A DNA stretch of 37,922 nucleotides from positions 1 through 37,922 of the forward strand of contig JAJYPK010000015.1 in assembly GCA_021795465.1 (NCBI GenBank), read 5' to 3'. This document shows positions 1 to 29,026 of the stretch, one piece after another (the stretch's first letter is position 1; every line of letters starts with the position of its first letter). Both the position numbers and the translations under genes were made by a program. Source of the DNA: Bacillota bacterium (GTDB lineage: Bacteria; Bacillota; Sulfobacillia; Sulfobacillales; Sulfobacillaceae). Under the pieces are notes generated by a model. The model made no database searches, was not told where the DNA came from, and saw nothing but the letters and a program-made list of their open reading frames with translations.

Positions 1-690
1 GGTTGATGGATAATCCGGCTGATGATCGACCGGTCTGGTCATGGCGGGCTCTCCAGGATTTTGATGATGACGGGCCCATGTGGGTGTTTCAAGTATCTCA
101 GGTCGTTGAAAAAAAAGCTCGCGACAATTTTTTGACGAGTAAAGGGAGGCGAGCACCGAAGGTAACGGGTGGCGATACACGTAAGGATAATCGGATTCTC
201 CCGCATCTACATGGATCGGGTACGCCAAGTGTTCCTGGTAGAGATTAAATTCCGATTGGATCCCTGGTCGATTGCCGCGTGGATCCAATCGTACCCAGCC
301 AAATTCGGGGAAATATGCGGCATTGAGTCCATGCAGCGCAAATCCAGATTCAACGGTGCCGCGACGCATCACCCGTTGGTAACAAAACCCAGTGGGGATA
401 CCCAAACCTCGAAACAACGCCGCCAACAAGTGGGATTTGGCAAAACAAATACCGGTCCCCGCCGACACCACATCTGGCGCGGTGATCGTAACGATTAGGT
501 CGTCAGCATCAAAGGAGTGCCGAACCTGGTCACGGGTGTATTCAAAAGCGATGGCGGCCTGATTTTCCAGCGTGTTTGCCAGGTCTTGAATCTTGGCAAC
601 ACGAGCTGCGATGGTTGGATGATAAAAATCTACGATCTCGGTGGCCTCAAGGAAATCATCGACATGATCCGTTTCGGTGATTAAGTGCAT
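1..690 (-). CDS. Transglutaminase-like (papain-fold) protein, 3' end beyond the window
   Basis: An open frame of 230 codons starts at ATG 690 and is still open at position 1, so the C-terminus is missing. The Cys-His-Asp triad of the transglutaminase-like superfamily is visible: Cys82 in SAGTGICFAKSHLLAALFRG, His120 in GFALHGLNAAYF and Asp136 in GWVRLDPRGN. Bacterial members of this fold are peptidases, amidases or transamidases; the substrate cannot be told from sequence. There is no signal peptide, so it is probably cytoplasmic. The start is set by AAGGAG nine bases upstream. It is transcribed away from the cobalamin/mevalonate operon. Its promoter region holds a CRP/FNR-like palindrome at 770-785 with a -10-like TACCAT at 743-748. 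The family call is firm; the function is open. Confidence 0.85.
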   Translation of the reverse strand, partial: MHLITETDHVDDFLEATEIVDFYHPTIAARVAKIQDLANTLENQAAIAFEYTRDQVRHSFDADDLIVTITAPDVVSAGTGICFAKSHLLAALFRGLGIPTGFCYQRVMRRGTVESGFALHGLNAAYFPEFGWVRLDPRGNRPGIQSEFNLYQEHLAYPIHVDAGESDYPYVYRHPLPSVLASLYSSKNCRELFFQRPEILETPTWARHHQNPGEPAMTRPVDHQPDYPST

Positions 691-742: not shown

Positions 743-785
743 ATGGTAGATCTCGGTCTGGATCGTACCCGTGATTATTATCACG
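743..785 (-). promoter_or_regulatory. FNR/CRP-like operator and -10 for the transglutaminase gene
   Basis: Positions 770-785 read CGTGA-TTATTA-TCACG, a perfect inverted repeat with six-base arms. On the minus strand TACCAT (743-748) sits with its centre 32 bases from the operator centre. This is the class II activator arrangement, operator near -41. The leader to ATG 690 would be about 45 bases. Regulator identity is inference. Confidence 0.5.
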
Positions 786-1109
786 AAATCCTGTGGTTAG
801 GTGTGTTGCGGGTGACGGGTTTTGTCGGCTACGACCGGGATGGGACCGCACTTTTCCTGTTTGTGTGGTCCACGATGATCGACAGATGGTCATCCCGCGG
901 TATCGATATCGTGATCCCAACCTGGGGACTTCAGATCGGTTAGGATGTGCTGCCACACTCCACCCAGTATTGCAAGGAAAAGGAAAGTCCGCGAAGCCAA
1001 TCATCCCATGATCGTATTTGCATGACTGAATAGGCACCGTGTGTGAAATGAACTTGCCCGAATTGGTCATGATGAGCGTGACCGGCTAGTTGGCAGTGGC
1101 GGGTCGCTT

Positions 1110-1151
1110 TGTGACATTGGTCACGGCCTTTCCCGGGGGGCATGGCATGAT
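1110..1151 (+). promoter_or_regulatory. FNR/CRP-like operator and -10 for the pduO-mevalonate operon
   Basis: TGTGA-CATTGG-TCACG at 1110-1125 closely matches the TGTGA-N6-TCACA consensus of CRP and of Bacillus Fnr. CATGAT at 1146-1151 is centred 31 bases downstream, so the site would lie near -41 of a start at about 1158. The predicted leader of some 41 bases ends at the pduO ribosome binding site. No good -35 is seen, as expected for an activated promoter. Confidence 0.55.
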
Positions 1152-1198
1152 GTATCGTGACGCGTTACTCAATTTAATGCAAAAGGAGAATGGGTGAC

Positions 1199-1768
1199 AT
1201 GCCAATTTATACGCGACGTGGCGATCTGGGAAAGACCCAGGTCATTGGCAGCACTCGTCGACTGAAAGATGACGCGCGGGTTGGGGCCTATGGTAGCGTC
1301 GATGAAGCGGGGGCCGTGATTGGGTCGGTCATTGCATTTGTGGCGTCGGACACCGCGGTGTCCGACGTCGCCGAGGTACTGATTGCTGTTCAGCAGATGT
1401 TGTGGGACGTGGGAGCGGATTTGGCGCGAGTGGATGATAAGAAGCACTCCTATCGGACCCCGGATACTGCCGCCACTCAATTAGAACCTATCATTGATCG
1501 GTACCAGGGTGAACTCCCACCCCTCACTCAATTTATCTTGCGGGGGGGTGCCCCGAGTGGAGCACTCCTTCACTTGGCGTGTACCGTGGTGCGCCGCGCT
1601 GAGCGCGACGTTGTCCACCTGCAACGCCTGGAGACGATTCATCCCCCTGTGCTCACATACCTCAATCGTCTTTCAGACTTACTCTTTGTACTGGCGCGAG
1701 TGCTGAACGCGCGGGCCGGGGTTCCGGAAGTGATTTATGAACATAGCGCCCATGTATTTCGGTCTTAG
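1199..1768 (+). CDS. pduO: PduO-type ATP:cob(I)alamin adenosyltransferase
   Basis: The 189-residue protein matches the PduO/MMAB family, which transfers the adenosyl group of ATP to cob(I)alamin to make coenzyme B12. The N-terminal ATP-binding motif YTRRGDLGKTQVIG and the following GSVDEAGAVIGS helix are present. The C-terminal helix carries RRAERDVVHL and the typical LNRLSDLLFVLAR segment. Length is normal for the family, and the protein is cytoplasmic. The ATG at 1199 is chosen because AAGGAG lies ten bases upstream; an in-frame ATG at 1190 is only one base from that motif. It is the first gene of a run that continues into the mevalonate genes 48 bases later, so it probably shares their promoter. 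No cobalamin-dependent enzyme is encoded nearby. Confidence 0.9.
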   Translation: MPIYTRRGDLGKTQVIGSTRRLKDDARVGAYGSVDEAGAVIGSVIAFVASDTAVSDVAEVLIAVQQMLWDVGADLARVDDKKHSYRTPDTAATQLEPIIDRYQGELPPLTQFILRGGAPSGALLHLACTVVRRAERDVVHLQRLETIHPPVLTYLNRLSDLLFVLARVLNARAGVPEVIYEHSAHVFRS

Positions 1769-1816
1769 ACCGTATGGGGTCATCGAATATTATGGTCTCG
1801 GAGGAGGTAAGTTGGG

Positions 1817-3031
1817 ATGACATCACGTCTACCGAACTTTCACATGCTGTCAACCACAGAACGTCTCTGCCTGGTCAGTGAGATGTGCGAGCTATCACCT
1901 GAGGACCTTAACGTGTTTGACCTAGGTGGGATACAAACCCAGTTGGACCACCTCATCGAGAACGCGCTTGGCGTGTTCGCATTGCCTTTTGGGGTAGCGA
2001 CCAATTTTCTCGTCAATAGCGTCGATTACTTGGTGCCGATGGTCGTGGAAGAACCATCCATCGTTGCATCGGCGAGTTATGCCGCCAAACTGGTTCGACA
2101 AGCGGGTGGCTTTCACGCCGAGGCTTCCGCACGCCGCATGATTGGGCAAGTGCAAGTGGTAGGTTGTGAGGACGCCAACACCAGTCGAGAACGACTATTG
2201 GCGCGCTCACAGGATCTGTTGGATTTGGCGAATGATGTGCGCCCCGGCATGAAAATTCGCGGCGGAGGAGCCTTATCCCTGGAGGTTCGGGTGATAGATC
2301 AGGCACCAAACGGAGTGAGATCCCACATGGTCATTGTCCAAGTCCGTGTCGATACGCAAGACGCCATGGGGGCTAATATTATCGACGCCATGATGGAGGG
2401 GATTGCGCCCGCGATAGAAAGTATTGCCGGGGGGACCGCGTATTTACGCATTTTGTCTAATTACACGGACGAATGTTTGGCGCGTGCCGATTGCACGGTT
2501 CCCGCGGCCATGCTTGCCACGCGCGAATTGTCGGGTGAAGCAGTGAGGGATCGTATCATCGCGGCTTATGAATTTGCCGAGGCCGATGTCTATCGCGCGG
2601 TGACTCATAACAAAGGCATCATGAATGGGGTTGATGCCGTAGTTGTAGCCACCGGCAACGATTGGCGGGCAATCGAAGCAGCAGCCCATGCGTTTGCCGC
2701 GCGAGGAGGGCAATATCGGTCCATGACGCGATGGGCAATCAATTCTCGAGGGGACTTGGTCGGATCACTAGAATTACCTATGCCCATTGCGACGGTTGGT
2801 GGGTTTACAGCGCTCAATCCCATGTCGCGCCTCGCTCTGAAGATCTTACGGGTATCTCGGGCAACCGATTTGGCAAAAGTGATAATGGCCGTGGGGTTAG
2901 CCCAAAACCTCGCTGCTTTGCGAGCCCTGGTCACAGAAGGTATTCAAAAAGGCCACATGGCGTTGCATGCGAGGGCGCGCTTAGGCGTGGCCGCCGGCGG
3001 CCCTGCACCGTGGATAGAGATCGAGCGGTAG
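1817..3031 (+). CDS. mvaA: Hydroxymethylglutaryl-CoA reductase, class II
   Basis: A 404-residue enzyme that reduces HMG-CoA to mevalonate, the committed step of the mevalonate pathway. Class II signatures are clear: ENALGVFALPFGVATNFLVN near residue 49, MVVEEPSIVA with the catalytic Glu at 78/79, DAMGANIID at 182-190, NKGIMNG with the catalytic Lys266, and GHMALHARA with the catalytic His near 380. These line up closely with the Pseudomonas mevalonii enzyme. It is soluble with no membrane anchor, as in bacteria. The ATG at 1817 follows GGAGGAGG at about nine bases. Cofactor preference (NADH or NADPH) cannot be decided by eye. It sits 48 bases after pduO and 2 bases before mevalonate kinase. 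Confidence 0.96.
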   Translation: MTSRLPNFHMLSTTERLCLVSEMCELSPEDLNVFDLGGIQTQLDHLIENALGVFALPFGVATNFLVNSVDYLVPMVVEEPSIVASASYAAKLVRQAGGFHAEASARRMIGQVQVVGCEDANTSRERLLARSQDLLDLANDVRPGMKIRGGGALSLEVRVIDQAPNGVRSHMVIVQVRVDTQDAMGANIIDAMMEGIAPAIESIAGGTAYLRILSNYTDECLARADCTVPAAMLATRELSGEAVRDRIIAAYEFAEADVYRAVTHNKGIMNGVDAVVVATGNDWRAIEAAAHAFAARGGQYRSMTRWAINSRGDLVGSLELPMPIATVGGFTALNPMSRLALKILRVSRATDLAKVIMAVGLAQNLAALRALVTEGIQKGHMALHARARLGVAAGGPAPWIEIER

Positions 3032-3033
3032 GG

Positions 3034-3978
3034 ATGCATCGATCCGAATGGCAGGGGCAAGGCTCGGCTCATGGCAAAGTCATTCTCCTCGGTGAACATG
3101 CGGTTGTCTATGGCCACCCTGCCATCGCGTTGCCATTCTCATCCGTGGCGGTGGATGTCCAGGTTATACCAGTGACCGGACTCGACGCATTAGACTGCGC
3201 TTACTATAGGGGACCCCTAGCCGCGGCGCCGAAAACTTTGCTCGGTTTACGCGTCATGATACCCGCGATTCGTGACCGACTGGGGGCGTCGGACGATCCC
3301 GTCCGGATTGTTATCACTTCCACGATTCCTGCCGGGTTCGGTCTTGGTTCTAGTGCCGCCGTGGCCGTTGGAACGATTCGTGCGCTTTATGACCGGTATC
3401 GGGTGCCCCTCTCTCGAGAGGAACTCTGGGACCTGGCTCATCTGGCTGAGACGGTGGTGCACGGGACACCGAGTGGCATCGACGTGAGAGCGGCAAGTAC
3501 GGATAGCCCCTTATGGTTTACCCGTGGCGAGGGTTTGACAACGCTATTGTTGCCTCGACGTCTCTTTTTGGTGGTGGCCACTTCGAATTCACCAGGTCAT
3601 ACGGGCATTATGGTCCGGCGTGTACAGGCCAGCCGACCCAGGACGAACGGGCCGATAGAACGACTTGGCGCATTGACGCACACTGCCCGAGACTGTCTGG
3701 CCTCCGGGGACTATAAGTTATTGGGCACGCTACTAACTGAAGGTCACCAAGAATTAAGGGCATTGAATGTGACCACGCCGGATGTGGACCGCCTCGTGGA
3801 AGCAGCCTTGCTCGGCCAGGCGCTCGGGGCCAAACTTACCGGCAGTGGCGGTGGCGGTACGATTATTGCGTTGGCGCCGGATGCTACGGGCCAACGGAAT
3901 CTCGCCAGGACGCTACAGCGAGCCGGAGCGAAGAATGTCTGGGCACTGACCACACTGGAAAGGGACGTGACTCCATGA
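3034..3978 (+). CDS. mvk: Mevalonate kinase
   Basis: A 314-residue GHMP kinase that phosphorylates mevalonate at C5 with ATP. Motif 1 is SAHGKVILLGEHAVVYGHPA (residues 11-30). The ATP-binding motif 2 is PAGFGLGSSAAVAVG (about 99-113). HGTPSGID contains the likely catalytic Asp150, and motif 3 is KLTGSGGGGTIIAL. Gene order and the AHGKVILLGEHAV signature favour mevalonate kinase over the phosphomevalonate kinase found later in the operon. The ATG at 3034 lies two bases after the reductase stop; its Shine-Dalgarno is weak, and an in-frame GTG at 3010 would overlap the reductase gene. The last bases overlap the next gene in an ATGA. Confidence 0.94.
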   Translation: MHRSEWQGQGSAHGKVILLGEHAVVYGHPAIALPFSSVAVDVQVIPVTGLDALDCAYYRGPLAAAPKTLLGLRVMIPAIRDRLGASDDPVRIVITSTIPAGFGLGSSAAVAVGTIRALYDRYRVPLSREELWDLAHLAETVVHGTPSGIDVRAASTDSPLWFTRGEGLTTLLLPRRLFLVVATSNSPGHTGIMVRRVQASRPRTNGPIERLGALTHTARDCLASGDYKLLGTLLTEGHQELRALNVTTPDVDRLVEAALLGQALGAKLTGSGGGGTIIALAPDATGQRNLARTLQRAGAKNVWALTTLERDVTP

Positions 3979-5006
3979 CGGACACCATGAAGAGAAAGGA
4001 CGAGCATCTAGACATTGCCTTGAACCAATCGATTACTATGGGTCGCTCGGGAGGCTTCGATGAGGTCGAATTTCGGCATCGAGCCCTGCCCGAAGTCGAT
4101 TACGACCGAATTTCCCTACGGACGACTTTTTTGGGGCGCGAATTGGCGGCACCATTTATCATTTCCAGCATGACTGGGGGCACGGAGCGAGGCAAAGACA
4201 TTAATCGGCATTTAGCCGAAGCAGCCCGAGAAATGGGGTTAATCATGGGAGTTGGAAGCCAACGCGTGATGCTGGAAGATCCTTCTACCCGATCAACTTT
4301 TCGTGTAGTCCGTGACGTGGCTCCAGACCTCTATGTGTTGGGAAACTTAGGGGCGGTGCAACTGAATTACGGGCTGAGCCTCCAAGATGCACTAGATGCG
4401 GCGGACGTGATTCGCGCTGACGGCCTATTTTTGCACATGAATCCATTACAAGAGGTTATTCAATCCGGCGGCAATACAGACTTTTCCGGGCTCTTGGATC
4501 GGATTGGTGACTTGGCTACCCACTTACCGATCCCGTTATTGGCCAAAGAGGTGGGGTGCGGAATCGACCCCGAGGTCGCCACTCGATTGGTCGAACGGGG
4601 AATTTCGGCCTTGGATATCAGCGGTGCCGGAGGCACCTCGTGGGCCGCGATAGAAGGGTTTCGTACAACGGATCCGGCGAGAAAGACGATTGCCCAACTT
4701 TTTGCAAACTGGGGTATCCCCACGGCCCAAAGTCTTAGACTATGTCGCTCGCGGTTACCGACATTCCCGTTGATTGCCTCAGGAGGCATTCGTCATGGAT
4801 TAGATGCGGCTAAAGCTCTGGCGTTGGGCGCCAATCTGGTGGGATTGGCCCGTCCCTTATTGGAGCCGGCGACAACGAGTACCAAGGCGGTCATCCATAT
4901 CGTGCAACAATGGATGCTCGAGCTACGCGTTGCCATGTTTCTGGTGGGCGCACCAAGCATAGAGAGTTTAAGGGTCCAACCGTTATACGACAGAGGATTC
5001 CTGTGA
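3975..5006 (+). CDS. fni: Type 2 isopentenyl-diphosphate isomerase (FMN-dependent)
   Basis: A 343-residue protein that interconverts IPP and DMAPP using reduced FMN. It has the type 2 pattern: RKDEHLDIAL at residues 7-16, ISSMTGGT near 63-70, MGVGSQR near 91-97, LHMNPLQEVIQSGGNTDF, the flavin-phosphate segment DISGAGGTSWAAIE, and IASGGIRHG-DAAKALALGA. The barrel matches the family length. The start ATG 3975 overlaps the mevalonate kinase stop (ATGA), with AAAGGG upstream. The stop overlaps the next gene's GTG start. The gene lies inside the mevalonate operon, so C5 unit production and isomerisation are co-expressed. Unrelated type 1 isomerase is not present here. Confidence 0.95.
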   Translation: MTDTMKRKDEHLDIALNQSITMGRSGGFDEVEFRHRALPEVDYDRISLRTTFLGRELAAPFIISSMTGGTERGKDINRHLAEAAREMGLIMGVGSQRVMLEDPSTRSTFRVVRDVAPDLYVLGNLGAVQLNYGLSLQDALDAADVIRADGLFLHMNPLQEVIQSGGNTDFSGLLDRIGDLATHLPIPLLAKEVGCGIDPEVATRLVERGISALDISGAGGTSWAAIEGFRTTDPARKTIAQLFANWGIPTAQSLRLCRSRLPTFPLIASGGIRHGLDAAKALALGANLVGLARPLLEPATTSTKAVIHIVQQWMLELRVAMFLVGAPSIESLRVQPLYDRGFL

Positions 5007-5995
5007 GAACGGTTGTCGCGCGGGCGCACGCTAATATCGCTATGGTCAAATACTGGGGGAAGCGGGATGAGACGCTTAATTTGCCGATGACCGGGAGTAT
5101 TTCCATGACGGTGGACAAACTTTTTGTGACGACCTCCGTGACAGGGGACACCCGTTTGGGGAGTGACCAGGTATTCATTGACGGAGTGCCGGCGTCAGCG
5201 GTCGACCAGATCCGAGTCAGCCAATTTCTGGACGTGATTCGAGGTTCCGTGGGGCAGAAAATGTACGCCTTGGTGCGATCCGAGAATCGGGTGCCGCCAG
5301 GGGCAGGACTGGCGTCCTCGTCAGCCGCTTATGCCGCCCTTGCGATGGCGGCGACGCGAGCTTTCGGAGGAATGCCAGACGTTTGGACATTATCACGCAT
5401 TGCGCGTCGTGGATCCGGGTCTGCAGCACGGTCGATTTTCGGGGGATGGGTGCAATGGCATCGCGGAACGCAAGCGGACGGAAGCGATTCGCTGGCCGAA
5501 CCGATTCTGGGACATCGGCTTCACGATATGGTATTGCAAGCGGTGGTGGTAAACGCCGGTGCCAAAACAATTTCCAGCTGCGAAGGAATGCGCCGAACCG
5601 TAGAGACGTCTCCCTTTTATGAGGCTTGGTTAGAAGCCGTGGAGAACGACCTCGTTCGCATGAGACAAGCGCTTGATAGAGGAGATTTCGCGGGGGTGGG
5701 CCAGATTGCCGAAGCCAACGCCTGGAAGATGCATGCCACGACGATGGGGGCAGACCCGCCCTTTATCTATTGGGAAGGATTTACCTTCGACGTCATCCGG
5801 CGCGTACAGAGCCTTCGAAGAGTGGGTGTTCAAGCCTATTTTACGATTGACGCCGGACCGCATGTTGTGGTGCTGTGTCAACGGGCTGATGTAGGGGTCA
5901 TCCGTGAAGCCATGTTGGCCGTCCCTGGAGTTAAGCAAGTATGGGATTTGAGCCCTGGACCAGGGGCCCAAATAATCGACGAATGCGACGGATGA
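5003..5995 (+). CDS. mvaD: Diphosphomevalonate decarboxylase
   Basis: A 330-residue GHMP-family enzyme that uses ATP to decarboxylate mevalonate diphosphate to IPP. ARAHANIAMVKYWGKRDE (residues 6-23) is the diagnostic N-terminal motif with the substrate-binding Tyr and Lys. Other motifs are GAGLASSSAAYAALAMA (about 100-116), RRGSGSAARSIFGGW (136-149) and the catalytic Asp283 in TIDAGPHVV. I place the start at GTG 5003 because it overlaps the isomerase stop (GTGA) and has AGAGGA five bases upstream. A longer frame starts at 4910 but lies within the previous gene and adds no family residues. The end overlaps the phosphomevalonate kinase ATG. Confidence 0.95.
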   Translation: MRTVVARAHANIAMVKYWGKRDETLNLPMTGSISMTVDKLFVTTSVTGDTRLGSDQVFIDGVPASAVDQIRVSQFLDVIRGSVGQKMYALVRSENRVPPGAGLASSSAAYAALAMAATRAFGGMPDVWTLSRIARRGSGSAARSIFGGWVQWHRGTQADGSDSLAEPILGHRLHDMVLQAVVVNAGAKTISSCEGMRRTVETSPFYEAWLEAVENDLVRMRQALDRGDFAGVGQIAEANAWKMHATTMGADPPFIYWEGFTFDVIRRVQSLRRVGVQAYFTIDAGPHVVVLCQRADVGVIREAMLAVPGVKQVWDLSPGPGAQIIDECDG

Positions 5996-7077
5996 CGACG
6001 GCACGAGCCCCAGGGAAGCTCATGTTGATGGGTGAGTATGCGGTCACTCAGAAGGGCCATCCGAGTGTGGTACTAGCCATCGACCGTGACCTAACGTGTT
6101 CTTTGGCTCCGTCATCAGATTTCTCCCTAAACTTCGTGGGGACGAACATTCCACGAATTACGGCGACCGATTGGAGCACCCTTCGGCGACACATGGCAGA
6201 AACACCGAACCTTGCATTAGTCCATCAGGCATTTTCATGGGTGGATCGATATTTATCTGAAGAAGGCACAGCTATCCCACCGTTTCGGTTGGTGGTGATC
6301 AGTACACTACAATCTCCGCATGGGGTCAAATATGGCTTTGGATCGAGTGCGGCGTTAACGGTTGCCATGGTCGCAGGGTTGTATGCGTTCGCTAGCCACA
6401 AACCCTTGGCACGGGAGGCTATCTTCAAACTGGCTTCACTCGCTCATGTGGGAGTTCAAGCGTTGAGTTCCTGTGCGGATGTAGCGGCCGCCACGTATGG
6501 AGGGCGTCTCCTATATCGCCGGTACGATCCCGGATGGCTCGAAGGACAACTGCACTCGAAGGCCAGTGCGCATCTTCTGATAGAAAAGCCCTGGCCTGAC
6601 CTCCAAATTGTGCCGATGTCACTGAATCCTCTCTTGAGTTTTCGTGTTGGTTGGACAGCGATTCCCGCATCGACACCCAGTTTAATGCGTCGTATGATCG
6701 AATTTCAGCAACGAGAACCGGATCGCTTTAGAGAATTTTTATGGGCGAGTGATGAGGCTGTGGGGCAGTTTGTCCAGGCAGTGGATCAGAATCTTTCAGA
6801 GGATTTTTGTCACGCTGTCTCAAGCAATCGTGAGGCACTGCGACGTCTCTCAGTGATGGCGGCTATCCCTATTGAGACGCCCTTAATCTCCGAGGCTTTA
6901 GGTGTGGTGACGCAAGTGGGCGGTTGTGGGAAAACGTCTGGTGCGGGAGGTGGAGATGCGTTAATAGCATGGCTTAAGAATGATCAGGTCGATGATCTGG
7001 TGCAGCAAAAATGGGCGCAGAGGGGTGTGAGGATGATGTCCATAAGGCCGGTGGCCGAAGGGGTCACCTGCCGGTGA
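5992..7077 (+). CDS. mvaK2: Phosphomevalonate kinase
   Basis: A 361-residue GHMP kinase that converts phosphomevalonate to mevalonate diphosphate. Motif 1 is ARAPGKLMLMGEYAVTQKGH (4-23), motif 2 is GVKYGFGSSAALTVAM (111-126), and the C-terminal motif is GGCGKTSGAGGGDALIAW. The GEYAV and KYGFGSSAA forms are those of the bacterial ERG8-type phosphomevalonate kinases. ATG 5992 is preferred because it makes an ATGA overlap with the decarboxylase stop, like the neighbouring junctions; ATG 5983 is a near alternative. It is the last gene of the operon. No strong intrinsic terminator follows; only weak short inverted repeats are seen around 7095-7125. Confidence 0.93.
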   Translation: MTTARAPGKLMLMGEYAVTQKGHPSVVLAIDRDLTCSLAPSSDFSLNFVGTNIPRITATDWSTLRRHMAETPNLALVHQAFSWVDRYLSEEGTAIPPFRLVVISTLQSPHGVKYGFGSSAALTVAMVAGLYAFASHKPLAREAIFKLASLAHVGVQALSSCADVAAATYGGRLLYRRYDPGWLEGQLHSKASAHLLIEKPWPDLQIVPMSLNPLLSFRVGWTAIPASTPSLMRRMIEFQQREPDRFREFLWASDEAVGQFVQAVDQNLSEDFCHAVSSNREALRRLSVMAAIPIETPLISEALGVVTQVGGCGKTSGAGGGDALIAWLKNDQVDDLVQQKWAQRGVRMMSIRPVAEGVTCR

Positions 7078-7162
7078 CCATGAACCCGAAACAACTTTTG
7101 AAAGGTTGACCGATCTAGCGGTTGGGTGGTGATCGAACAAAGGACCCTGAGAGTAATCTTTT

Positions 7163-7205
7163 GGTGATCAATATCACGGTAGACCCGGACCATCCAGATT
7201 AACAT
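7163..7205 (+). promoter_or_regulatory. FNR/CRP-like operator and -10 for the TDT-family gene
   Basis: GGTGA-TCAATA-TCACG at 7163-7178 has a perfect GTGAT/ATCAC core. TAACAT at 7200-7205 is centred 32 bases downstream, the same geometry as at the other sites in the window. Predicted transcription start is near 7212, giving a leader of about 67 bases to ATG 7279. Confidence 0.5.
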
Positions 7206-7278
7206 GATTCATCAATCGGTACACCGTGCCATCTTAGGATGAGCAAGATGAGTCTCTGACCAAGGGGTGGTTAAATCA

Positions 7279-8331
7279 ATGCCCGAAGAGGCCGAGCAAT
7301 CATTTTATCCGGGATATTTTGCCGCCGTCATGGCGACCGGTATCGTATCGACGGTACTCTATCTCTATCATCACCTTTGGCTCTCGAATGGGCTTTTATG
7401 GTTCTCTAGTGGATTCTACGTAGTCCTTTGGGTTGTTTATTTAACCAGGGCTATAAGCCAACCTCAAGCCATGTGGCGAGACATGACCAATTCCGCGACA
7501 ACTTTTGGCTTCCTAACTATTGTGGCGGGGTCAAATGTCTTGGCGGTTCGTTTTCTCTTGGCGGGCTGGGTCGATTTATCGATCATCTTAGGGAGTATCG
7601 CCATCGTGATCTGGGCCGTCTTATTTTATACGGTAATGACGGCTCTCATTACCGGGCCAGCGGTAAAACTCTCAGACGTCAATGGTGGTTGGCTCATTGC
7701 TATTGTCGCAGAACAATCCATTGCTACCTATTTGGCGGCTCTCATCGATGTTATCCCGCACCAGGCTACCGTGTTGTTTCTGATCGCCAGTGCGTTTTGG
7801 GCCATGGGACTCATGTTTTATGTCATCTTTATTGGTCTTGTGATGGAACGACTACTATTTCGACAGGTGACCCATAACGATTTGCAACCACCATACTGGA
7901 TTAATATGGGCGCAACAGCCATTACGGTCCTGGCCAGTTCTCGCCTGTTGGCGGTTCACACGCATGTCATGATTCTTATCACCTTGCGCCCTTTTCTTGA
8001 GGGTGTCACCCTGATGTTGTGGGCATGGGGAAGCTGGTGGATTCCCTTGTTAGTCATCTTAGGCATTTGGAAATATTGGAAAGGATCCGAAGCCGTGCGA
8101 TATCATCCTGCGCAATGGAGCATTGTATTCCCGCTCGGGATGTATGCGACGGCGACGACCACGATGGCCCATATCCAAGGATTCACACCGTTGCATCGAA
8201 TCGGTGCCGGGTTTGTCTGGATTGCATTTGGGTCATGGATTTTAGTGGCGTCTTTGGGACTGCACCAAGCGATATTCGACCATAGTGGATTTCACTGGCA
8301 TTACCATCCACGGGATTCGAACCGACGATAG
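7279..8331 (+). CDS. TDT/SLAC1-family membrane transporter (TehA-like)
   Basis: A 350-residue integral membrane protein with about ten hydrophobic segments and a short charged tail. The N-terminal FYPGYFAAVMATGIVSTVLY, followed by regular helix pairs, matches the tellurite-resistance/dicarboxylate transporter (TDT) family, which also includes SLAC1 anion channels and the sulfite exporter Ssu1. Transport of small anions is known for the family; the substrate here is not evident. ATG 7279 is preferred over GTG 7267 because AAGGGGTGG lies eight bases upstream of the ATG. It is monocistronic, with its own FNR/CRP-like promoter. The C-terminus is rich in His and Arg. Confidence 0.82.
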   Translation: MPEEAEQSFYPGYFAAVMATGIVSTVLYLYHHLWLSNGLLWFSSGFYVVLWVVYLTRAISQPQAMWRDMTNSATTFGFLTIVAGSNVLAVRFLLAGWVDLSIILGSIAIVIWAVLFYTVMTALITGPAVKLSDVNGGWLIAIVAEQSIATYLAALIDVIPHQATVLFLIASAFWAMGLMFYVIFIGLVMERLLFRQVTHNDLQPPYWINMGATAITVLASSRLLAVHTHVMILITLRPFLEGVTLMLWAWGSWWIPLLVILGIWKYWKGSEAVRYHPAQWSIVFPLGMYATATTTMAHIQGFTPLHRIGAGFVWIAFGSWILVASLGLHQAIFDHSGFHWHYHPRDSNRR

Positions 8332-8669
8332 CAACGACCAGACACCTGTAAGGCGCCCGATGGTGGCCGGGCCCGAATCGGTGACACGGGGTTTCTCGGT
8401 GCACGGGGACCTGATCGTCTGAACTATGTCAGCAACCTCGGGCGAGTCGGGGCTATGGGGGACATGAATATGGTGAGTAGACAAGACCCAGGTGCTAGGA
8501 TTGCCACAAATGCGATCCCTCAATCCGTATCCGTGCGGCCCACGGACATTATCTGGTAAGCCGTGAACTCTCACACCAGGCCTGCGGCGACCCTTGCTTG
8601 AGTAATATGGTAGGTTCCGACCGTAAGGGGGAAAAAGGAACGAGAAATGTTGCGCCTCCATCACCGATT
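8332..8669. other. Convergent intergenic gap
   Basis: The gap lies between the ends of the TDT gene and the leftward nuoF-like gene. A short hairpin GCCCG/CGGGC at 8355-8372 could end transcription, but no T-tract follows. A leftward frame runs through the gap into the TDT gene, but it has no ribosome binding site and no recognisable protein. I see nothing else. Confidence 0.5.
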
Positions 8670-9938
8670 TTAGCGGGAGATATAAGGGTCCATGGGGCAG
8701 CGATGTTCCTCAATATGCTGAATAAATTCTGAGCGGAAGTGTTTCATCGCGCTCAGCATAAACGGCAGGGAGGCATCACCCAATGGACACAAGCAGTTTC
8801 CGTTCACATTGTCAGCGATGTCGGGGAGACGTTCCAAATCCGCAGGGGTTCCCGCGCCGTTCTCAATCTTCTCAAGAATGGCGGTCATCCAGTACGTACC
8901 CTCCCGGCACGGTGTGCACTTGCCGCATGACTCTGCACGATAGAACTTGAGGAGGCGAGCCGCTGCCCACACCATACAGACCGTGTCATCTAGCACCATC
9001 ACGCCACCCGAACCCAGCATTGACCCGGCTTGGATCAACGATTCATAGGCCAGTGGCACCGAAAAACTGTCTGGAACCAGCAATGGAACCGAACTTCCAC
9101 CGGGGATTACGGCCTTGAAGGTGTGACCGGGGAGAGGGCCGCCAGCCAATTCGTAGAGAAGAGTTGAGAGGGGGGCCCCTAGCGGTAATTCATAGTTTCC
9201 GGGGCGTACCACACGACCACTCACGGAGAAAATTTTTATACCGAACGAATCCGGTGTGCCATATTGACGATACCAGTTGGCGCCTCGACTCATGATTTGG
9301 GGGAGATTGGCCACCGTTTCTGCGTTGTTCACCACCGTAGGGGCTCCATAGAGGCCAACTTGGGCAGGAAACGGAGGTTTAATCCGCGGGTGACCCCGCT
9401 TGCCTTCTAAGGATTCCAGTAACGCGGTTTCTTCTCCACAGATGTATGCGCCAGCGCTACGAAAAACCCGAAGCGTTACCGAGAATGAGGAATCGAAAAT
9501 ATGGGGCCCGATATAACCCGCATCGGCCGCTTGGTCGCGTGCGCGCTGGAGCGATTCGTATCCGGCCAGCAATTCTCCGCGTACAAAAATGTACGCTTCT
9601 TGGGCATTCAGCGCATAGGCAGCAATCAGGGCTCCCTCAATGACTTGATGGGGGTTATGCTCAATCAGTTCACGATCCTTAAACGTACCGGGTTCCGCCT
9701 CGTCGGCATTGACAACCATATAGCGGGTCTCGACCGATTGGTCGAGAAAGCTCCACTTCCGTCCGGTTGCAAATCCTGCGCCTCCTCGCCCCCTTAGTCC
9801 GGAGCGCGCGACTTCATCTCGCACCCACTGGGACTCGCGCGACACGGCGCGACGAAGTCCCTCGTATCCTCCATGGGCACAATAGACACTTAACTTTTCC
9901 AGGTTCGCGATATCTCGATGTCTCAACAAAAACTGCAA
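8670..9938 (-). CDS. nuoF: NuoF-like NADH-binding FMN/4Fe-4S flavoprotein, encoded alone
   Basis: A 422-residue homologue of the 51-kDa subunit of complex I and of the diaphorase subunits of soluble hydrogenases and formate dehydrogenases. The NAD/FMN region LRGRGGAGFATGRKW (48-62) and MVVNADEAEPGTFKDRE (74-90) are intact. So is GAYICGEETALLESLEGKRG. The 4Fe-4S ligands are intact: SCGKCTPCREGTYWM plus NGNCLCPLGD. It should pass electrons from NADH through FMN to an Fe-S partner. The start is TTG 9936-9938 with GAGGAGG seven bases upstream. No nuoE, nuoG or hydrogenase gene adjoins it, so its partner is unknown. The upstream leader is unusually long if the operator at 10372-10387 drives it. 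Confidence 0.92.
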   Translation of the reverse strand: MQFLLRHRDIANLEKLSVYCAHGGYEGLRRAVSRESQWVRDEVARSGLRGRGGAGFATGRKWSFLDQSVETRYMVVNADEAEPGTFKDRELIEHNPHQVIEGALIAAYALNAQEAYIFVRGELLAGYESLQRARDQAADAGYIGPHIFDSSFSVTLRVFRSAGAYICGEETALLESLEGKRGHPRIKPPFPAQVGLYGAPTVVNNAETVANLPQIMSRGANWYRQYGTPDSFGIKIFSVSGRVVRPGNYELPLGAPLSTLLYELAGGPLPGHTFKAVIPGGSSVPLLVPDSFSVPLAYESLIQAGSMLGSGGVMVLDDTVCMVWAAARLLKFYRAESCGKCTPCREGTYWMTAILEKIENGAGTPADLERLPDIADNVNGNCLCPLGDASLPFMLSAMKHFRSEFIQHIEEHRCPMDPYISR

Positions 9939-10814
9939 TCGCCATCCTCCTCAGATGTGCTTTATCACTCGATGAATAACGCCTGTCGTCCTCTACTTAC
10001 AACCGCAATGCGGCATAGCAGGGAAGAACCATGCGTAACCGGGATGTGAATGGGGTCGAAGTAGGGGCACTCTTTGTGGATCGCTTGTATTGTCGAGCCG
10101 TCGATGATTCACCGTGCAAGCGGGGCATCCCCACATAGACGACCGCCGTCTTCGGATCCTCGGGATTTTGCAACGAGTGCTGCTTGGACAAGGATATAAA
10201 GCGGCGGGTTTGACCGTGCCACCAATGCAACACCACGTCACCGACGAGACCATCAACCTCTAACCGTTATCCTAATATTTTTCGATGATGCCTTCCGAAA
10301 ATTCACCTTCTCTTCTGTACTCCTGCACTCCCCTGGCTTCTTTAAGCATGCCTCTGATACGGACCGATGAGTGTGATTGTGGTCACACAAAGCCATGTCT
10401 CTCGGACCAGAGAAACACGAACTCTTCTTGTCCTGTGAGATGCCCGCGAACCGAACCTTGGATGTGGCGACCCTTGATGGGCGGAAGTGTGCGCAGCGAC
10501 GCTGCCAAAGGGTGTGCTCTCTGTATGGCGTAGAAACCGAAAGCGCGGCTGAGCTATCTCATGCCACCGCTCCTAGGCGTGGCACGCATATGATTTTTGG
10601 CCCAAGCCACAACACGGATACGGTGTCGTTCTGCGGGGTTATTGTCGGCGCCTTAATGATGATGTTCGTGCTTGCCCATGGGAAGCCATTTTGGCTGGAA
10701 AGCATCCGAGAGTAAAAAAACTCCGGTCCACGATTCGTAATGGATGAAAACAGCCATCTACGCAAGAGGAAGGGTCCCATCCAAGCTCGACGGGTCTGCG
10801 TTGTGGGTTTTGGG
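9939..10814. other. Long gap without a confident gene
   Basis: Nothing here is a secure gene. Leftward, a frame at 9997-10236 (starting VVLHWWHGQTRRF) and a 25-residue frame at 10272-10349 (MLKEARGVQEYRREGEFSEG and on) look somewhat protein-like, but they are short and unrecognised. Rightward, a frame from ATG 10395 to 10715 ends with a hydrophobic stretch (VIVGALMMMFVLAHG); it has no clear ribosome binding site. They may be gene remnants. The clearest element is the perfect TGTGA-N6-TCACA site at 10372-10387. Confidence 0.45.
10345..10387 (-). promoter_or_regulatory. Consensus FNR/CRP-like operator upstream of the nuoF-like gene
   Basis: TGTGA-TTGTGG-TCACA at 10372-10387 is a perfect consensus match, and the symmetry extends one more base each side. 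On the minus strand CATGCT (10345-10350) lies at the common distance of 32 bases; on the plus strand no -10-like hexamer is found at that distance. If this is the nuoF promoter, the leader is about 400 bases. Confidence 0.45.
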
Positions 10815-11252
10815 TCAAGGCGCTAACAATTGATGCATTTCGCCCAGCACCACTTCTAGATTCACATCGCTTAGGGACTCGATTGGCGAAATGATGAACC
10901 GATTTTCTTTATCGACGTGACTCTCAAACAAATGAGAGATCTGAGCGCATGCCATTAGCGCCGCGTCGCGCGTATCCGGTCGTTCCAGTTCGGTGGTCAG
11001 CGTGTGCAACGCGACGTGGTCGTACAACATCAACTCGATGAGTTGATAGTTAATTCGTCTCGCTACCGGATACACGGTTGTTTCTTCAGCAAGCGCCTGG
11101 CGACCGATTTCGGTGGTAATCCACGGGGTAACGATATCGCGGGTGAATTTCCAGTTTGACGCCATCACCATTTGTTGGGTCAACTGGTGCAACGTATCGA
11201 CCATTTCCGCATGGTGATGACGCATGGCCTGTGCGATGTCATGATTGGACAT
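10815..11252 (-). CDS. Hemerythrin-like (HHE cation-binding) protein
   Basis: A 145-residue, mostly helical protein with the spaced His/Glu pattern of hemerythrin HHE domains: RHHHAEMVDTL near the N-terminus, AEETTVYP in helix 2, YDHVALHTLTTELE in helix 3 and ESHVDKENRFI in helix 4. These residues would bind a diiron centre that senses or stores oxygen or NO, or takes part in metal handling or repair. There is no signal peptide or membrane segment. The ATG at 11252 has GGGAGGT eight bases upstream. The promoter holds an FNR/CRP-like site at 11319-11334. The family call is good; the specific role (oxygen or NO sensing, Fe-S repair) is inference. Confidence 0.82.
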   Translation of the reverse strand: MSNHDIAQAMRHHHAEMVDTLHQLTQQMVMASNWKFTRDIVTPWITTEIGRQALAEETTVYPVARRINYQLIELMLYDHVALHTLTTELERPDTRDAALMACAQISHLFESHVDKENRFIISPIESLSDVNLEVVLGEMHQLLAP

Positions 11253-11291
11253 CCCTCTATACCTCCCACGTGAACCCTAACACTTGAACGT

Positions 11292-11334
11292 AGAATAGCT
11301 TCTAAAGGTCTTGGGGTTTGTGACCGGGATCACG
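11292..11334 (-). promoter_or_regulatory. FNR/CRP-like operator and -10 for the hemerythrin gene
   Basis: TGTGA-CCGGGA-TCACG at 11319-11334. On the minus strand TATTCT (11292-11297) is centred 32 bases from the operator centre, giving a start near 11285 and a leader of about 33 bases to ATG 11252. This is one of the two best examples of the shared geometry. Confidence 0.58.
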
Positions 11335-11386
11335 TTTGATCGATAAGACATGGTATGAACGCATCGGCGAAATTTCCGTAGGCCAC

Positions 11387-12091
11387 TTACTTTTGCAGAA
11401 GGCTTTGATTAAACAAGACACGGATCGTCTCACGGATTGGTTCCATGTTGGTTAGCACCAGTTCGACGGAGGCTCCGGATCCTACACTGATCAACGCCTC
11501 TTCATTATCGCGAATGAGCACCAACCACCCGCGCGGTGCATACGATCCGAGAAGAGGTACGTGCGTGCGTGGTGGACACACACCACACCCGGGCGGTGGA
11601 CACTGATCAAAGCAGATGAATTGTTCACTAATCTTGCGGTCGCGGGCCTCTTTAAGGAGGGGAGCGAATGGTGGAACTGTGTTGGCCGACGCACCCACGG
11701 CGATGTGGTTTTGACTTGCCCTAATGAGGGCGCTCCCGTGTGTCCATAAGGCATCCTGTCCTCGGCCAGTAAAAAAGGTGGAGGCCATTTTTTTGACGGG
11801 GAGAGAGGCGTCGATTTGAGCCATTTTGTTCTGAAGCGTGTTGATTTGCGCGTGTGACACCGTGGTGAACGGAACGGCGCGATAGCGTGGCCCGGTGTCG
11901 CCCGGTTCTTCTAGCAATGCTCCCCGCCGAATCAGTCGCTCGATTACCGGATAGACATTGGCGCGTGCGATCCGCGCCACTTTTGCCGTCTGATAACCTG
12001 TTAAGGCACCCTCAGCCTCGGTCAAGGACACATACACCCGAGCCTCTAATGCCGACCATCCTACCTCTTGGAGCATTTGTACCGGATCCAT
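11387..12091 (-). CDS. TrmB-family transcriptional regulator with a four-cysteine cluster
   Basis: A 234-residue protein. The N-terminal winged helix (LQEVGWSALEARVYVSLTEA, then TAKVARIARANVYPVIERLI as the recognition region) is typical of TrmB-like regulators. The rest resembles a ligand-sensing domain. At residues 160-172 it carries CFDQCPPPGCGVC, spacing C-x3-C-x4-C-x2-C, which could bind a metal or Fe-S centre or act as a thiol switch. That reading is inference. ATG 12091 is chosen over the longer frame from 12181 because GAGGTGG lies about five bases upstream and the winged helix begins just after. It is divergent from the DUF2892-like gene, and a 24-base palindrome lies between them. 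Confidence 0.75.
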   Translation of the reverse strand: MDPVQMLQEVGWSALEARVYVSLTEAEGALTGYQTAKVARIARANVYPVIERLIRRGALLEEPGDTGPRYRAVPFTTVSHAQINTLQNKMAQIDASLPVKKMASTFFTGRGQDALWTHGSALIRASQNHIAVGASANTVPPFAPLLKEARDRKISEQFICFDQCPPPGCGVCPPRTHVPLLGSYAPRGWLVLIRDNEEALISVGSGASVELVLTNMEPIRETIRVLFNQSLLQK

Positions 12092-12236
12092 GAATGCCAC
12101 CTCAGTTGCGTCTTGTTGTGAGTGCTCTCTAAAATTTTTCTCTGAGCTCCACCGTACACCACTACAGCCGTGTTTGACCACGGGTGGGAAGGCTCACGAC
12201 TTCGAGGAGAACTCGTTAAATCTCCCATCAGATCTC

Positions 12237-12294
12237 TTGTATTTTTCTCAAAGAGAAGTATATCATAAAGTAGTAGTAATTTAAATGACTACTA
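12237..12294 (+). promoter_or_regulatory. Promoter with 7+10+7 palindrome between trmB-like and DUF2892-like genes
   Basis: TAGTAGT (12271-12277) and ACTACTA (12288-12294) form perfect seven-base arms around an AT-rich ten-base spacer. A plus-strand promoter TTGTAT (12237-12242), 18-base spacer, TATCAT (12261-12266) would start transcription in the left arm. A bound protein would therefore block the small membrane-protein gene. The TrmB-like regulator next door is the obvious candidate, by position only. Confidence 0.5.
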
Positions 12295-12310
12295 TTGACG
12301 GGGGTGTGTG

Positions 12311-12529
12311 ATGAACAAAAACGAAAACGGTACGGATCGTGTGATTCGGGTGGTACTCGGTCTGATTCTAGGGGTTTTGGCGTATGAGCGTGTGGGCGGA
12401 GCGATAGGGACATGGGGGTTTGGGATCTTTGGGGTGCTAGCGCTCGTAACTGGTATTACGGGGTTTTGTGGAGTCTATCGCCTGCTGGGGATTCGTACGT
12501 GTCCCCTACCTCCATCCAAATCTCGATGA
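12311..12529 (+). CDS. Small DUF2892-like (YgaP-type) membrane protein
   Basis: A 72-residue protein of two hydrophobic helices, RVIRVVLGLILGVLAYERVG and FGIFGVLALVTGITGFCGVY, followed by RLLGIRTCP. The short charged N-terminus (NKNENGTDR), the turn and the FCGVYRLLGIRTC ending fit the DUF2892 inner-membrane family, sometimes fused to rhodanese domains. One Cys lies in helix 2 and one near the C-terminus. Function is unknown; family members often sit with sulfur-handling genes. ATG 12311 is used, with GTG 12308 directly before it as an alternative; the Shine-Dalgarno is a weak GGGGG. A TrmB-like gene faces it. Confidence 0.7.
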   Translation: MNKNENGTDRVIRVVLGLILGVLAYERVGGAIGTWGFGIFGVLALVTGITGFCGVYRLLGIRTCPLPPSKSR

Positions 12530-12670
12530 TGAGCCTACGCTGACCAAAATCTTGGGTCTTTTTGAGCGTCACAACATAATTGAATCGCGGTAAACATTCA
12601 CCCCTCGGATTGGTCCGGGGGGTGGTTTTCGGTAGATGCTCTAAATTCCGTATACACACGCCGCCCGGAT

Positions 12671-14638
12671 TTACGTCGTTGTTGGTTCCAACAGCGCGGA
12701 TAAGTCTTGCACTGGGAGCTCACCGGACTCTTCTGCTACGCCATCTGTTAACATCATTAAACAGTAAGGACAACCGGTGACGAGTTGATCCGCCCCAACG
12801 TCTAAGGCTTCGCGTGAACGGTTACGGTTAATGCGGGTGCCAGAGCGTTCTTCCATCCACATGCGTCCTCCGCCTGCTCCACAACAAAATCCGTTTTCGT
12901 GGTGACGCGGCATTTCCTTGAGGATCATGCCGGTTCCGGTGATGATATCGCGCGGAGCCTCGTAAATGCCGTTATGGCGACCGAGATAGCACGGATCATG
13001 GTACGTAGCGGATCCCGGCTGATGCGATGTTTTCCCCTGCAACTTGCCCTTCGTCAAGAGTTTTTGCAAGAACTGACTGTGATGGTAGACTTCGAAATGT
13101 CCTCCCAATTGAGGATACTCGTTGACAAAGGTATTAAAGCCATGGGGGCAACTGGTGACGATGGTCGTGATTCCCGCGGCGTTGAGCGCATCAATATTGT
13201 GGGTGGCCATATTTTGAAAGAGGTATTCCTGACCCATGCGGCGCGCCGGGTCGCCCGTGCAACGCTCCTGACTGCCCATGACCCCAATGTCGACTCCAGC
13301 GTCCCGTATCAGTTGGACGGTCCGTATGGCCGCCTGGCGGGCTCGAGGATCAATACTTGCCGCACAACCGACCCAATACAGTACGGCGGATACCTCACCG
13401 CGGGAGACATCTTTTACGCCCGCCTCTTCGGCAAATGTATGGCGTCCTTCGTCGTTCAGTCCCCATGGATTACCGGATCCTCCCTCCATGGCCCGCACAG
13501 CTCGCGTGACCTCTTCGGGCATGGAGCTCTGGGTTAATACGAGGTCTTGGCGTAACGGAATAATTTTGGTTAAGTGGTTGTTGTCTACCGGACAGACCTG
13601 TACGCAAGCACCGCAAGTCGTGCAGTCCCAAATGGCGTCGGTATGAATCACGGGCCCCGCTAGGGTTGTTTTTGCAAGAGGGGGGATGTCTGGTGATGCG
13701 TCATTGCTGGCCCTTTGGCGAGTCACCTGGTCTAAATGATGGCGCAAGTCGATCATCAGTTGCATCGGGGAGAGCGATTTTCCGGTTTGATGGGCAGGGC
13801 ATACGTCATCACAACGCCCACATTGCACACAAGAATATGGGTCAAGCATATCTTTCCAGGTCATGTCGCGGACGGTGCTGAGGCCGTAATGATCGGCGTC
13901 TTCGGTCGTAAAATCAATCGGGGCGACAATACCGCTTGGTTCAGACGCTTTGAGCCAGACGTTGAAGGGTGCAACGATGAGATGAAAGTGTTTAGAGTAG
14001 GGAAGATAGACCAGAAAGCCTAGTTCCGCGACGAGTTTGATGCCGCCCAACCACAGTCCCACCTCGGAAGAATGGACAAAAGAACCCATGACATGGTACT
14101 CAATCCAAGTGCCGATGGGAGCATAGCCGCCAATGCGGTGATTCCCTAAGTTCCACGCTTCACGAAAGAGGTCCGTGAGCACGATGAGGACGATGAGACC
14201 TAAAATGATGCCGGCATCCCAATTACGGCGCAATCGTTGGGTTTTTAATAGATACCGTTTAATAAAGGCCATCAAGGCCGCAAACACTACCAGTGGCACG
14301 GCGAGATCGTTTAGCGGGGTGAGCCACACACCAAGCCACTGAGGTTGGGGCGCGTGACTAAACCATAGACCTTGCCATAAAAACCAGAATGTGTTGATGG
14401 TGAGCGCGAGGAATCCCCAAAAAATGACAAAGTGCGCTGCGCCTGAATATCGATCCCGGAATAGTTTTCTATGCAATCCGACTTCGGTGATTATGCCAAG
14501 CAGCGATTGCCGCGGCGTGCTGGTTCCTGTATAGGGTCTGGCCAGAGATAACACGTATCCTTTTTCAAGGATTAAGAGACCAAACCACAGGACCGCCAGT
14601 AACGTCGTCAGGAGAAAAAAGAGATGGAATGTGTTCAC
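12671..14638 (-). CDS. Membrane-bound HdrD-like Fe-S oxidoreductase (NarI-like fused to two 4Fe-4S and CCG domains)
   Basis: A 655-residue fusion. The first 240 residues form about six membrane helices of the NarI/HdrE cytochrome type (EVGLHRKLFRDRYSGAAHFV, EYHVMGSFVHSSEVGLWLGG). Then come two 4Fe-4S motifs, CVQCGRCDDVCP and CTTCGACVQVCP. Two CCG cysteine-rich domains follow: YWVGCAASIDPRA...CTGDPARRMG...TSCPHGFNTF and YHDPCYLGRHNGIY...NGFCCGAGGGRMW. Such proteins pass electrons between a soluble donor (often an electron-transfer flavoprotein, or a thiol/disulfide) and the quinone pool. No etfAB gene is nearby, so the donor is unknown. The start is GTG 14636-14638, overlapping the stop of the small frame before it (GTGA). 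Two FNR/CRP-like sites lie upstream. Confidence 0.88.
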   Translation of the reverse strand: MNTFHLFFLLTTLLAVLWFGLLILEKGYVLSLARPYTGTSTPRQSLLGIITEVGLHRKLFRDRYSGAAHFVIFWGFLALTINTFWFLWQGLWFSHAPQPQWLGVWLTPLNDLAVPLVVFAALMAFIKRYLLKTQRLRRNWDAGIILGLIVLIVLTDLFREAWNLGNHRIGGYAPIGTWIEYHVMGSFVHSSEVGLWLGGIKLVAELGFLVYLPYSKHFHLIVAPFNVWLKASEPSGIVAPIDFTTEDADHYGLSTVRDMTWKDMLDPYSCVQCGRCDDVCPAHQTGKSLSPMQLMIDLRHHLDQVTRQRASNDASPDIPPLAKTTLAGPVIHTDAIWDCTTCGACVQVCPVDNNHLTKIIPLRQDLVLTQSSMPEEVTRAVRAMEGGSGNPWGLNDEGRHTFAEEAGVKDVSRGEVSAVLYWVGCAASIDPRARQAAIRTVQLIRDAGVDIGVMGSQERCTGDPARRMGQEYLFQNMATHNIDALNAAGITTIVTSCPHGFNTFVNEYPQLGGHFEVYHHSQFLQKLLTKGKLQGKTSHQPGSATYHDPCYLGRHNGIYEAPRDIITGTGMILKEMPRHHENGFCCGAGGGRMWMEERSGTRINRNRSREALDVGADQLVTGCPYCLMMLTDGVAEESGELPVQDLSALLEPTTT

Positions 14639-14874
14639 CGCATTAGCCCCCCGGGTGAAATAAACGTATCAATCTTCTTCATCACTTCAGAAAGATGATC
14701 TTCGTGGCTCTGACGCTTAAGGCGAAATAAGGGCGCCAGGTTACCGATTCGACTGCGAAGGTTGCACGCTTCTTTAGCATAAGAGGGATTTTGTGCAGAT
14801 TTGTGACAGAGGTCACCGAGCTGACTTTTGATGCCTCCCTTATTAATTTGAGGTTGCGGTTTGGTTTGGGGCAT
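14635..14874 (-). CDS. Possible small protein translationally coupled to the HdrD-like gene
   Basis: A 79-residue frame ends in a GTGA overlap with the HdrD-like gene, which favours real coupling. Its second half (KEACNLRSRIGNLAPLFRLK, then EDHLSEVMKKIDTFISPGG) is helix-like and could be coding. Against it, ATG 14874 has no Shine-Dalgarno at a usable distance. One FNR/CRP-like site lies immediately upstream of the ATG and another lies inside the frame. If the promoter at 14776-14817 is real, only the C-terminal part could be translated from that transcript. I do not recognise a family. It may be a leader peptide or a remnant. Confidence 0.3.
   Translation of the reverse strand: MPQTKPQPQINKGGIKSQLGDLCHKSAQNPSYAKEACNLRSRIGNLAPLFRLKRQSHEDHLSEVMKKIDTFISPGGLMR
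14776..14817 (-). promoter_or_regulatory. FNR/CRP-like operator and -10 for the HdrD-like gene
   Basis: Plus-strand TGTGA-CAGAGG-TCACC at 14802-14817 (perfect GTGAC/GTCAC core). On the minus strand TATGCT (14776-14781) is centred 31 bases away, giving a start near 14769. The geometry matches the other sites of this class. Confidence 0.52.
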
Positions 14875-14876
14875 AG

Positions 14877-14892
14877 GGTGATTAGTGTCACA
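14877..14892 (-). promoter_or_regulatory. Second FNR/CRP-like site upstream of the HdrD-like gene
   Basis: Plus-strand GGTGA-TTAGTG-TCACA; on the minus strand TGTGA-CACTAA-TCACC. It lies 75 bases upstream of the first site, about -115 relative to the predicted start. A tandem upstream site of this kind could be auxiliary. Confidence 0.42.
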
Positions 14893-17191: not shown

Positions 17192-17491
17192 ATGTTGCTG
17201 TCAAAAGAAGATGTACTACATGTCGCCAATCTTGCACGCCTTTCGGTGGAGCCGTCTGAACTCCAAGAGATTCAAGATACCCTAAGTCGCGTTCTGGAGT
17301 ACATAGACCTATTGAACGAATTAGATACGGAACAGGTGGTTCCGACCAGCCAGGTGGTTGAACAACACACCGTATGGCGGTCGGATCAGGTCGAAAAATC
17401 TTTGCCGATCGCCTTGGCTATCCAAAATGGACCGCAAGTGGTGACCGGTATGTTTGTGGTGCCGAAGATCCTCGACGGAGGTGGCCAATAA
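17192..17491 (+). CDS. gatC: Asp/Glu-tRNA amidotransferase subunit C
   Basis: A 99-residue GatC, the small subunit that wraps around and stabilises GatA in the GatCAB complex converting misacylated Glu-tRNA(Gln) and Asp-tRNA(Asn). It has the typical start LSKEDVLHVANLARLSVEPSEL and the central LNELDTEQVVPTSQV. The C-terminus NGPQVVTGMFVVPKILDGG matches the conserved FxVPxIL tail. ATG 17192 follows GGAGGGG; a longer frame upstream adds nothing. The stop overlaps the gatA start by one base (TAATG). Confidence 0.93.
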   Translation: MLLSKEDVLHVANLARLSVEPSELQEIQDTLSRVLEYIDLLNELDTEQVVPTSQVVEQHTVWRSDQVEKSLPIALAIQNGPQVVTGMFVVPKILDGGGQ

Positions 17492-29019: not shown

Positions 29020-29026
29020 CATTACG

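Follow-up and report, generated by a model that had tools for sequence, protein, structure and literature searches.

Seven palindromes in the first 15 kb of a contig from a Sulfobacillaceae bacterium (37,922 nucleotides, analyzed at full length and hereafter called the window; contig C231 among the 252 that make up a draft genome of 3.58 Mb) very probably serve as operators of the only CRP-type protein encoded in this genome, a predicted class II activator of genes for nitrate/N-oxide respiration. We uphold this assignment because of four features computed from the sequence: a peak in the spacing between sites and -10 elements, conservation of the sites, a single regulator gene, and a recognition helix that matches the half site.

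Palindromic sites in the window and the genome

An exact search of the whole window for GTGA-N6-TCAC returned exactly seven palindromes, all within the first 15 kb and none beyond position 14,891 (Table 1). Dinucleotide-shuffled versions of the window contained 0.75 ± 0.91 such palindromes, and 0 of 100 shuffles reached seven. The initial annotation, whose site coordinates include one extra base on either side, had located all seven sites and described their absence from 15 kb on as we find it, while it overlooked that all seven fit the tighter motif GTGAY-N4-RTCAC with a pyrimidine/purine inner pair. According to our own simple gene caller, all seven palindromes are intergenic. The genes they are predicted to serve were named by Pfam, which gave the same identities as the earlier target list for the transglutaminase-like, cobalamin/mevalonate, TDT, hemerythrin, and HdrD-like genes.

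In the whole genome, the tight motif occurs 40 times and a reversed control pattern 9 times; seven of the 40 matches fall in the first 15 kb of the window, where 0.17 are expected. Enrichment in intergenic regions, proposed earlier as a check, was found overall, with 17 of 40 matches outside genes compared with 20% non-coding DNA (measured on stretches fetched around the matches; p = 0.001), and was weak outside the window (10 of 33, p = 0.11). We additionally considered the -10 rule of the initial annotation in a loose form (A at position 2 and T at position 6, either strand), which 22% of random intergenic positions satisfy. Six of the seven window sites have such a -10 element (p about 6e-4), as do 14 of 17 intergenic versus 5 of 23 intragenic sites (p = 3e-4) and 7 of the 10 intergenic sites outside the window (p = 0.0015). 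Specificity is seen when the motif is combined with a -10 element; taken by itself, the exact motif shows only mild intergenic enrichment.

Table 1 Predicted sites, genes, and regulon loci
Feature	Position	Strand	Details
Transglutaminase-like gene	1-690	-	Pfam; downstream of site 770-785
CRP-type site (predicted)	770-785 (center 777.5)	-	-10 TACCAT 748-743 (-); precedes transglutaminase-like gene
CRP-type site (predicted)	1110-1125 (center 1117.5)	+	-10 CATGAT 1146-1151 (+); precedes cobA/mevalonate operon
Target operon (predicted)	1199-7077	+	Cobalamin adenosyltransferase, HMG-CoA reductase, GHMP kinase, FMN-dependent (type II) isomerase-like, diphosphomevalonate decarboxylase, GHMP kinase; Pfam
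CRP-type site (predicted)	7163-7178	+	-10 TAACAT 7200-7205 (+); precedes TDT/SLAC1 transporter
TDT/SLAC1-family transporter, target (predicted)	7279-8331	+	Profile match
NuoF-like NADH-binding subunit	8670-9938	-	Pfam
CRP-type site (predicted)	10372-10387	-	-10 CATGCT 10350-10345 (-); 435 bp upstream of NuoF
Hemerythrin-like protein, target (predicted)	10815-11252	-	Pfam
CRP-type site (predicted)	11319-11334	-	-10 TATTCT 11297-11292 (-); precedes hemerythrin
TrmB-family helix-turn-helix regulator gene	11387-12091	-	Start uncertain; longer open reading frame ends at 12181; Pfam
HdrD/CCG-type iron-sulfur membrane oxidoreductase, target (predicted)	12671-14638	-	Profile match
CRP-type site (predicted), promoter-proximal of tandem pair	14802-14817	-	-10 TATGCT 14781-14776 (-)
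CRP-type site (predicted), promoter-distal of tandem pair	14877-14892	-	75 bp further upstream; own -10 unconvincing (CAACCT)
CRP-family gene	L124:2062-2736 (contig other than the window's)	complement	224 aa; PF00027 and PF13545
narG equivalog (TIGR01580)	C157		In narGHJI cluster (NarI by Pfam); five tight sites
DUF2249 and NnrS-like membrane protein	C240		NnrS-like is our own label; matches no library family
Hemerythrin	C127

Spacing between sites and -10 elements

As an independent test of the spacing, we used 81 sites that precede genes in this genome or in its relatives; 72 of the sites are non-redundant, and 65 of these lie outside the window. Among these 65, a TA---T hexamer on the gene strand is centered at +31/+32 in 31 cases (first base at site center +28.5 to +30.5), while other offsets average 2.2 occurrences with a maximum of 4; no TA---T peak was present on the opposite strand. 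This peak agrees with an operator near -41.5 and a -10 center about 32 bp away, and supports a class II activator arrangement with sites centered near -41.5. The six hexamers named in the initial annotation are all real, with centers 31 or 32 bp from the palindrome center, and the class II spacing read from them reappeared as the same peak on 65 independent sites.

Tandem operators are a common feature of the predicted regulon, with palindromes 33 to 84 bp apart at many promoters (L112:2776-2828, L137:3531-3605, L197, and L284). The high copy number, the tandem copies, and two identical 14-mers (position 771 of the window and position 1891 of L112) could also be explained by a dispersed repeat or short mobile element. 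Since flanks and inner bases differ among the aligned copies, which have only the two arms and the -10 in common, we rejected this explanation as almost certainly wrong.

A single CRP-type regulator gene

The search for a Crp/Fnr-family gene recommended with the initial annotation yielded a single-copy gene on another contig. Its product is the only protein in the genome with a cNMP-binding domain (PF00027) and also carries the only strong Crp helix-turn-helix domain (PF13545). Within its recognition helix, GTHRETVSRAL, residues R178, E179, and R183 are invariant in a seven-member alignment. In the CRP/FNR family, half-site bases G3 and A6 correlate with R180 and E181 (CRP numbering; PMC1274295), so the arginine and glutamate residues of this helix predict the half site GTGA.

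The crp gene lies behind a DUF2249 gene in an operon with the order small gene, DUF2249, crp. As a site with a -10 opens this operon in seven genomes, the regulator likely activates its own operon. The small gene (111 aa) and the DUF2249 gene (L124:2946-3545 and relatives) are found next to the CRP gene in several Sulfobacillaceae and are apparently cotranscribed; the 111-aa protein matched no Pfam or NCBIfam family. Likewise, the regulator and the NnrS-like, crp-2, and HdrD-like proteins received no NCBIfam name above the cut-offs.

Cysteine is absent from the regulator, and most orthologues contain at most one, which argues against an iron-sulfur sensor of the FNR type. Oxygen sensing of the kind performed by the iron-sulfur clusters of E. 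coli and Bacillus Fnr would suit the anaerobic respiration genes among the targets, and a similar site is attributed to Bacillus Fnr. Because the cluster-binding cysteines are absent from the only CRP-type protein of the genome, we rejected this very improbable alternative. Residues E72 and R82 of the cAMP pocket of CRP both appear to be missing from GDIVGIAGLWDQSGYPASA (inspection by eye), and such a change of the pocket would argue against cAMP as the signal. H111 and several tryptophans are invariant in the seven-member alignment and do not decide for or against heme-based NO sensing as in DNR.

Conservation of sites and extent of the predicted regulon

About 0.006 sites are expected by chance per 300 bp. 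All 12 hemerythrin orthologues with available upstream DNA, from other genomes and with 32-50% identity, are preceded by an exact palindrome, mostly at -68 to -95 and with varying inner bases. Taken together, hemerythrin, DUF2249, and cobA orthologues in other Sulfobacillaceae have retained the site around -65 to -110, with changes at other bases. For cobA, a site is located at -67 to -114 in six of the six nearest orthologues; upstream sites were absent from cobA of Alicyclobacillus and of more distant orthologues. The closest relatives of the cobalamin adenosyltransferase belong to Sulfobacillus harzensis and Bacillota metagenome-assembled genomes, and the cobA/mevalonate gene order is similar in genomes G025 and G028. 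In genome G018, cobA occurs in several pieces in different places or frames near hemerythrin and DUF2249 sites (L297, G018:C52, 4461-6776), possibly representing a decayed gene.

In both G025 and G028, a site recurs upstream of a Rieske-NuoF operon. This gives support to the NuoF-like gene as the probable target of site 10372-10387, an assignment that the initial annotation had made only tentatively. In the window, 435 bp without a clear gene (9940-10372) separate this site from NuoF, where relatives have a Rieske gene and a 134-aa gene. The tandem pair before the HdrD-like gene is kept in two close orthologues (L225 and L227), where the palindromes lie 83 or 84 bp apart (75 in the window).

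Outside the window, DUF2249, methyltransferase-like, and hemerythrin-like genes come before the narGHJI cluster on C157. All DUF2249 loci of the genome are close to or downstream of a site, and in other genomes about 24 of 28 DUF2249 genes have a site within 180 bp. A single contig of G005 combines DUF2249, NnrS-like, crp, SLAC1, narGH, and HdrD-like genes, with sites before most units. G025 has an added operon with sulfocyanin and a nirK-like gene (TIGR02376, E 2e-47, below the cut-off of the model). The predicted regulon is therefore best read as a nitrate/N-oxide respiration program. These targets narrow the redox or oxygen signal proposed initially, as they point to nitrate/N-oxide respiration, not to redox in general.

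Observations that weigh against the assignment

Several observations weigh against assigning the sites to this activator. The tight motif lies inside genes in 23 of its 40 genome matches, and on its own the exact motif has little specificity, given the intergenic share outside the window reported above. Whole-genome motif totals are alike in genomes with and without the regulator; we consequently rejected them as a test for the regulator, and they are probably driven by coding sequence. Most SLAC1 orthologues have no site, with one at -99 in a single orthologue (L202). A site directly upstream of the HdrD-like gene is missing in three of five close orthologues; the closest sites in G025 and G005 are located at a greater upstream distance, those of G025 preceding the added nirK-like operon. 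Furthermore, two nearly complete genomes keep the sites while the orthologous regulator was not found: no CRP gene was detected in G010, and only a divergent CRP protein in G018. Missing contigs could explain both cases.

The intragenic matches, the similar totals, and the weak enrichment outside the window could indicate that the motif arose by chance or as a by-product of coding sequence, with a spacing chosen afterwards. This does not account for sites that keep their position ahead of orthologous genes, nor for the spacing peak found on independent sites. It is refuted for the core set and as a general account extremely improbable, and may hold for single matches such as L122:4035.

The two genomes in which the orthologue was not found would also fit sites that belong to another regulator, for which we consider a TrmB-type protein or a Rex-type redox repressor. 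A TrmB-family helix-turn-helix gene at 11387-12091 or 12181 (-) adjoins the site at 11320; the initial annotation was wrong in stating that the window holds no regulator gene. Rex sites (TTGTGAA-W4-TTCACAA; PMC2883068) likewise have GTGA/TCAC arms. However, the inner pair is Y..R in all seven window sites and A..T in Rex, centering at -41.5 suits an activator and not a repressor, the recognition helix of the CRP protein matches the half site, and the regulon includes the crp gene itself. We consider another regulator unlikely, and the TrmB-family protein is probably not the regulator of the window sites.

Proposed mechanism

Binding, activation, autoregulation, and signal, as we infer them for the CRP-type protein, would combine as follows. 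A dimer of this CRP/FNR-superfamily protein would bind GTGAY-N4-RTCAC centered near -41.5, where it would replace the -35 element, engage RNA polymerase in the manner of a class II activator, and turn on each transcription unit. RNA polymerase could thus be recruited to promoters that have a -10 and need no -35, and at tandem sites a second dimer would sit upstream, at a distance of about 33 to 84 bp. The regulon would comprise narGHJI, DUF2249 proteins, hemerythrins, the NnrS-like membrane gene, and in a relative a nirK-like gene, and further the HdrD-like oxidoreductase, the Rieske/NuoF module, the TDT transporter, and the cobA/mevalonate operon. The regulator would also activate its own operon (small gene, DUF2249, crp).

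Given the target genes, low oxygen or anoxia together with nitrate or NO is the probable inducing signal, presumably not received via an iron-sulfur cluster and probably not via cAMP. The regulator may act by its abundance, as Thermus DnrT, or via heme or a protein partner. A more specific version, which we regard as tentative and rather doubtful, would describe a distinct Sulfobacillaceae CRP clade with DUF2249 as operon partner that works without iron-sulfur cluster, cAMP, or small ligand, receives its signal from DUF2249/hemerythrin proteins, and couples mevalonate and adenosylcobalamin supply to nitrate respiration.

Other genes of the window

Just past the HdrD tandem sites, the window encodes a TnpB-type protein (IS605 OrfB/Cas12f-like; 15174-16304). 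GatCAB amidotransferase genes (gatC assigned from its position), an LD-carboxypeptidase (S66) gene, and an RNA uracil methyltransferase gene follow at 17192-22675. At the right end (28135-37510), TrbL-like and TraG/VirB4-like ATPase genes are accompanied by a DDE transposase fragment and a truncated MFS gene, which together resemble a portion of a conjugative or integrative element.

Comparison with known systems

E. coli CRP and Bacillus Fnr use operators of the TGTGA-N6-TCACA type in class II placement. The regulator described here shares the RETxxR-type recognition helix with E. coli CRP, but by inspection appears to lack its cAMP pocket residues E72 and R82, and in contrast to Bacillus Fnr it has no iron-sulfur cysteines.

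We take COG4309 to correspond to the DUF2249 family. COG4309 is present in regulons related to DNR/NnrR of proteobacteria, which are likewise CRP/FNR-type activators of denitrification genes; their motifs, TTGATnnnnATCAA and ctTTGcgnnnncgCAAag, differ from the half site GTGAY found here (PMC1274295). HcpR of Desulfovibrio (motif wTGTGAnnnnnnTCACAw) resembles our system in its CRP/FNR family membership, its N-oxide-related regulon, and the pairing of arginine 180 with G3 (PMC1274295). The regulon here differs in containing nar, DUF2249, and hemerythrin genes, and no hcp was seen among the targets, although it was not searched for.

In Thermus thermophilus (dnrST/nar/drpAB), the CRP-like activator DnrT controls nar and the DUF2249 genes drpAB, and its in vitro activity is independent of oxygen or nitrate (PMC6282519). 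The predicted targets here also include nar and DUF2249 genes, with the regulator near nar; sites precede nar-cluster genes and all DUF2249 loci of the genome, as expected of a DnrT-type target set. DnrT has the GAF protein DnrS beside it, whereas no GAF-domain DnrS-like neighbor was noticed in L124 or on contig C89 of G005, where only some neighbors were scanned and no genome-wide search was made.

Searches of the open-access literature found no description of such a regulon, and a Sulfobacillus paper (PMC4378227) mentions no regulator. For acidophilic bioleaching bacteria, our analysis offers a testable set of regulator, operator, and targets of nitrate respiration. The apparent cotranscription of a DUF2249 gene with the gene of a CRP-type regulator gives some context for this little-understood protein family, and the link of nitrate respiration to a mevalonate/cobalamin operon, whose cobA site is kept in the six nearest relatives, is unexpected. 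In summary, the system belongs to a well-known general class, the class II regulons of CRP type, and is distinguished by its content, its cysteine-free DUF2249-linked regulator, and its mevalonate/cobalamin operon.

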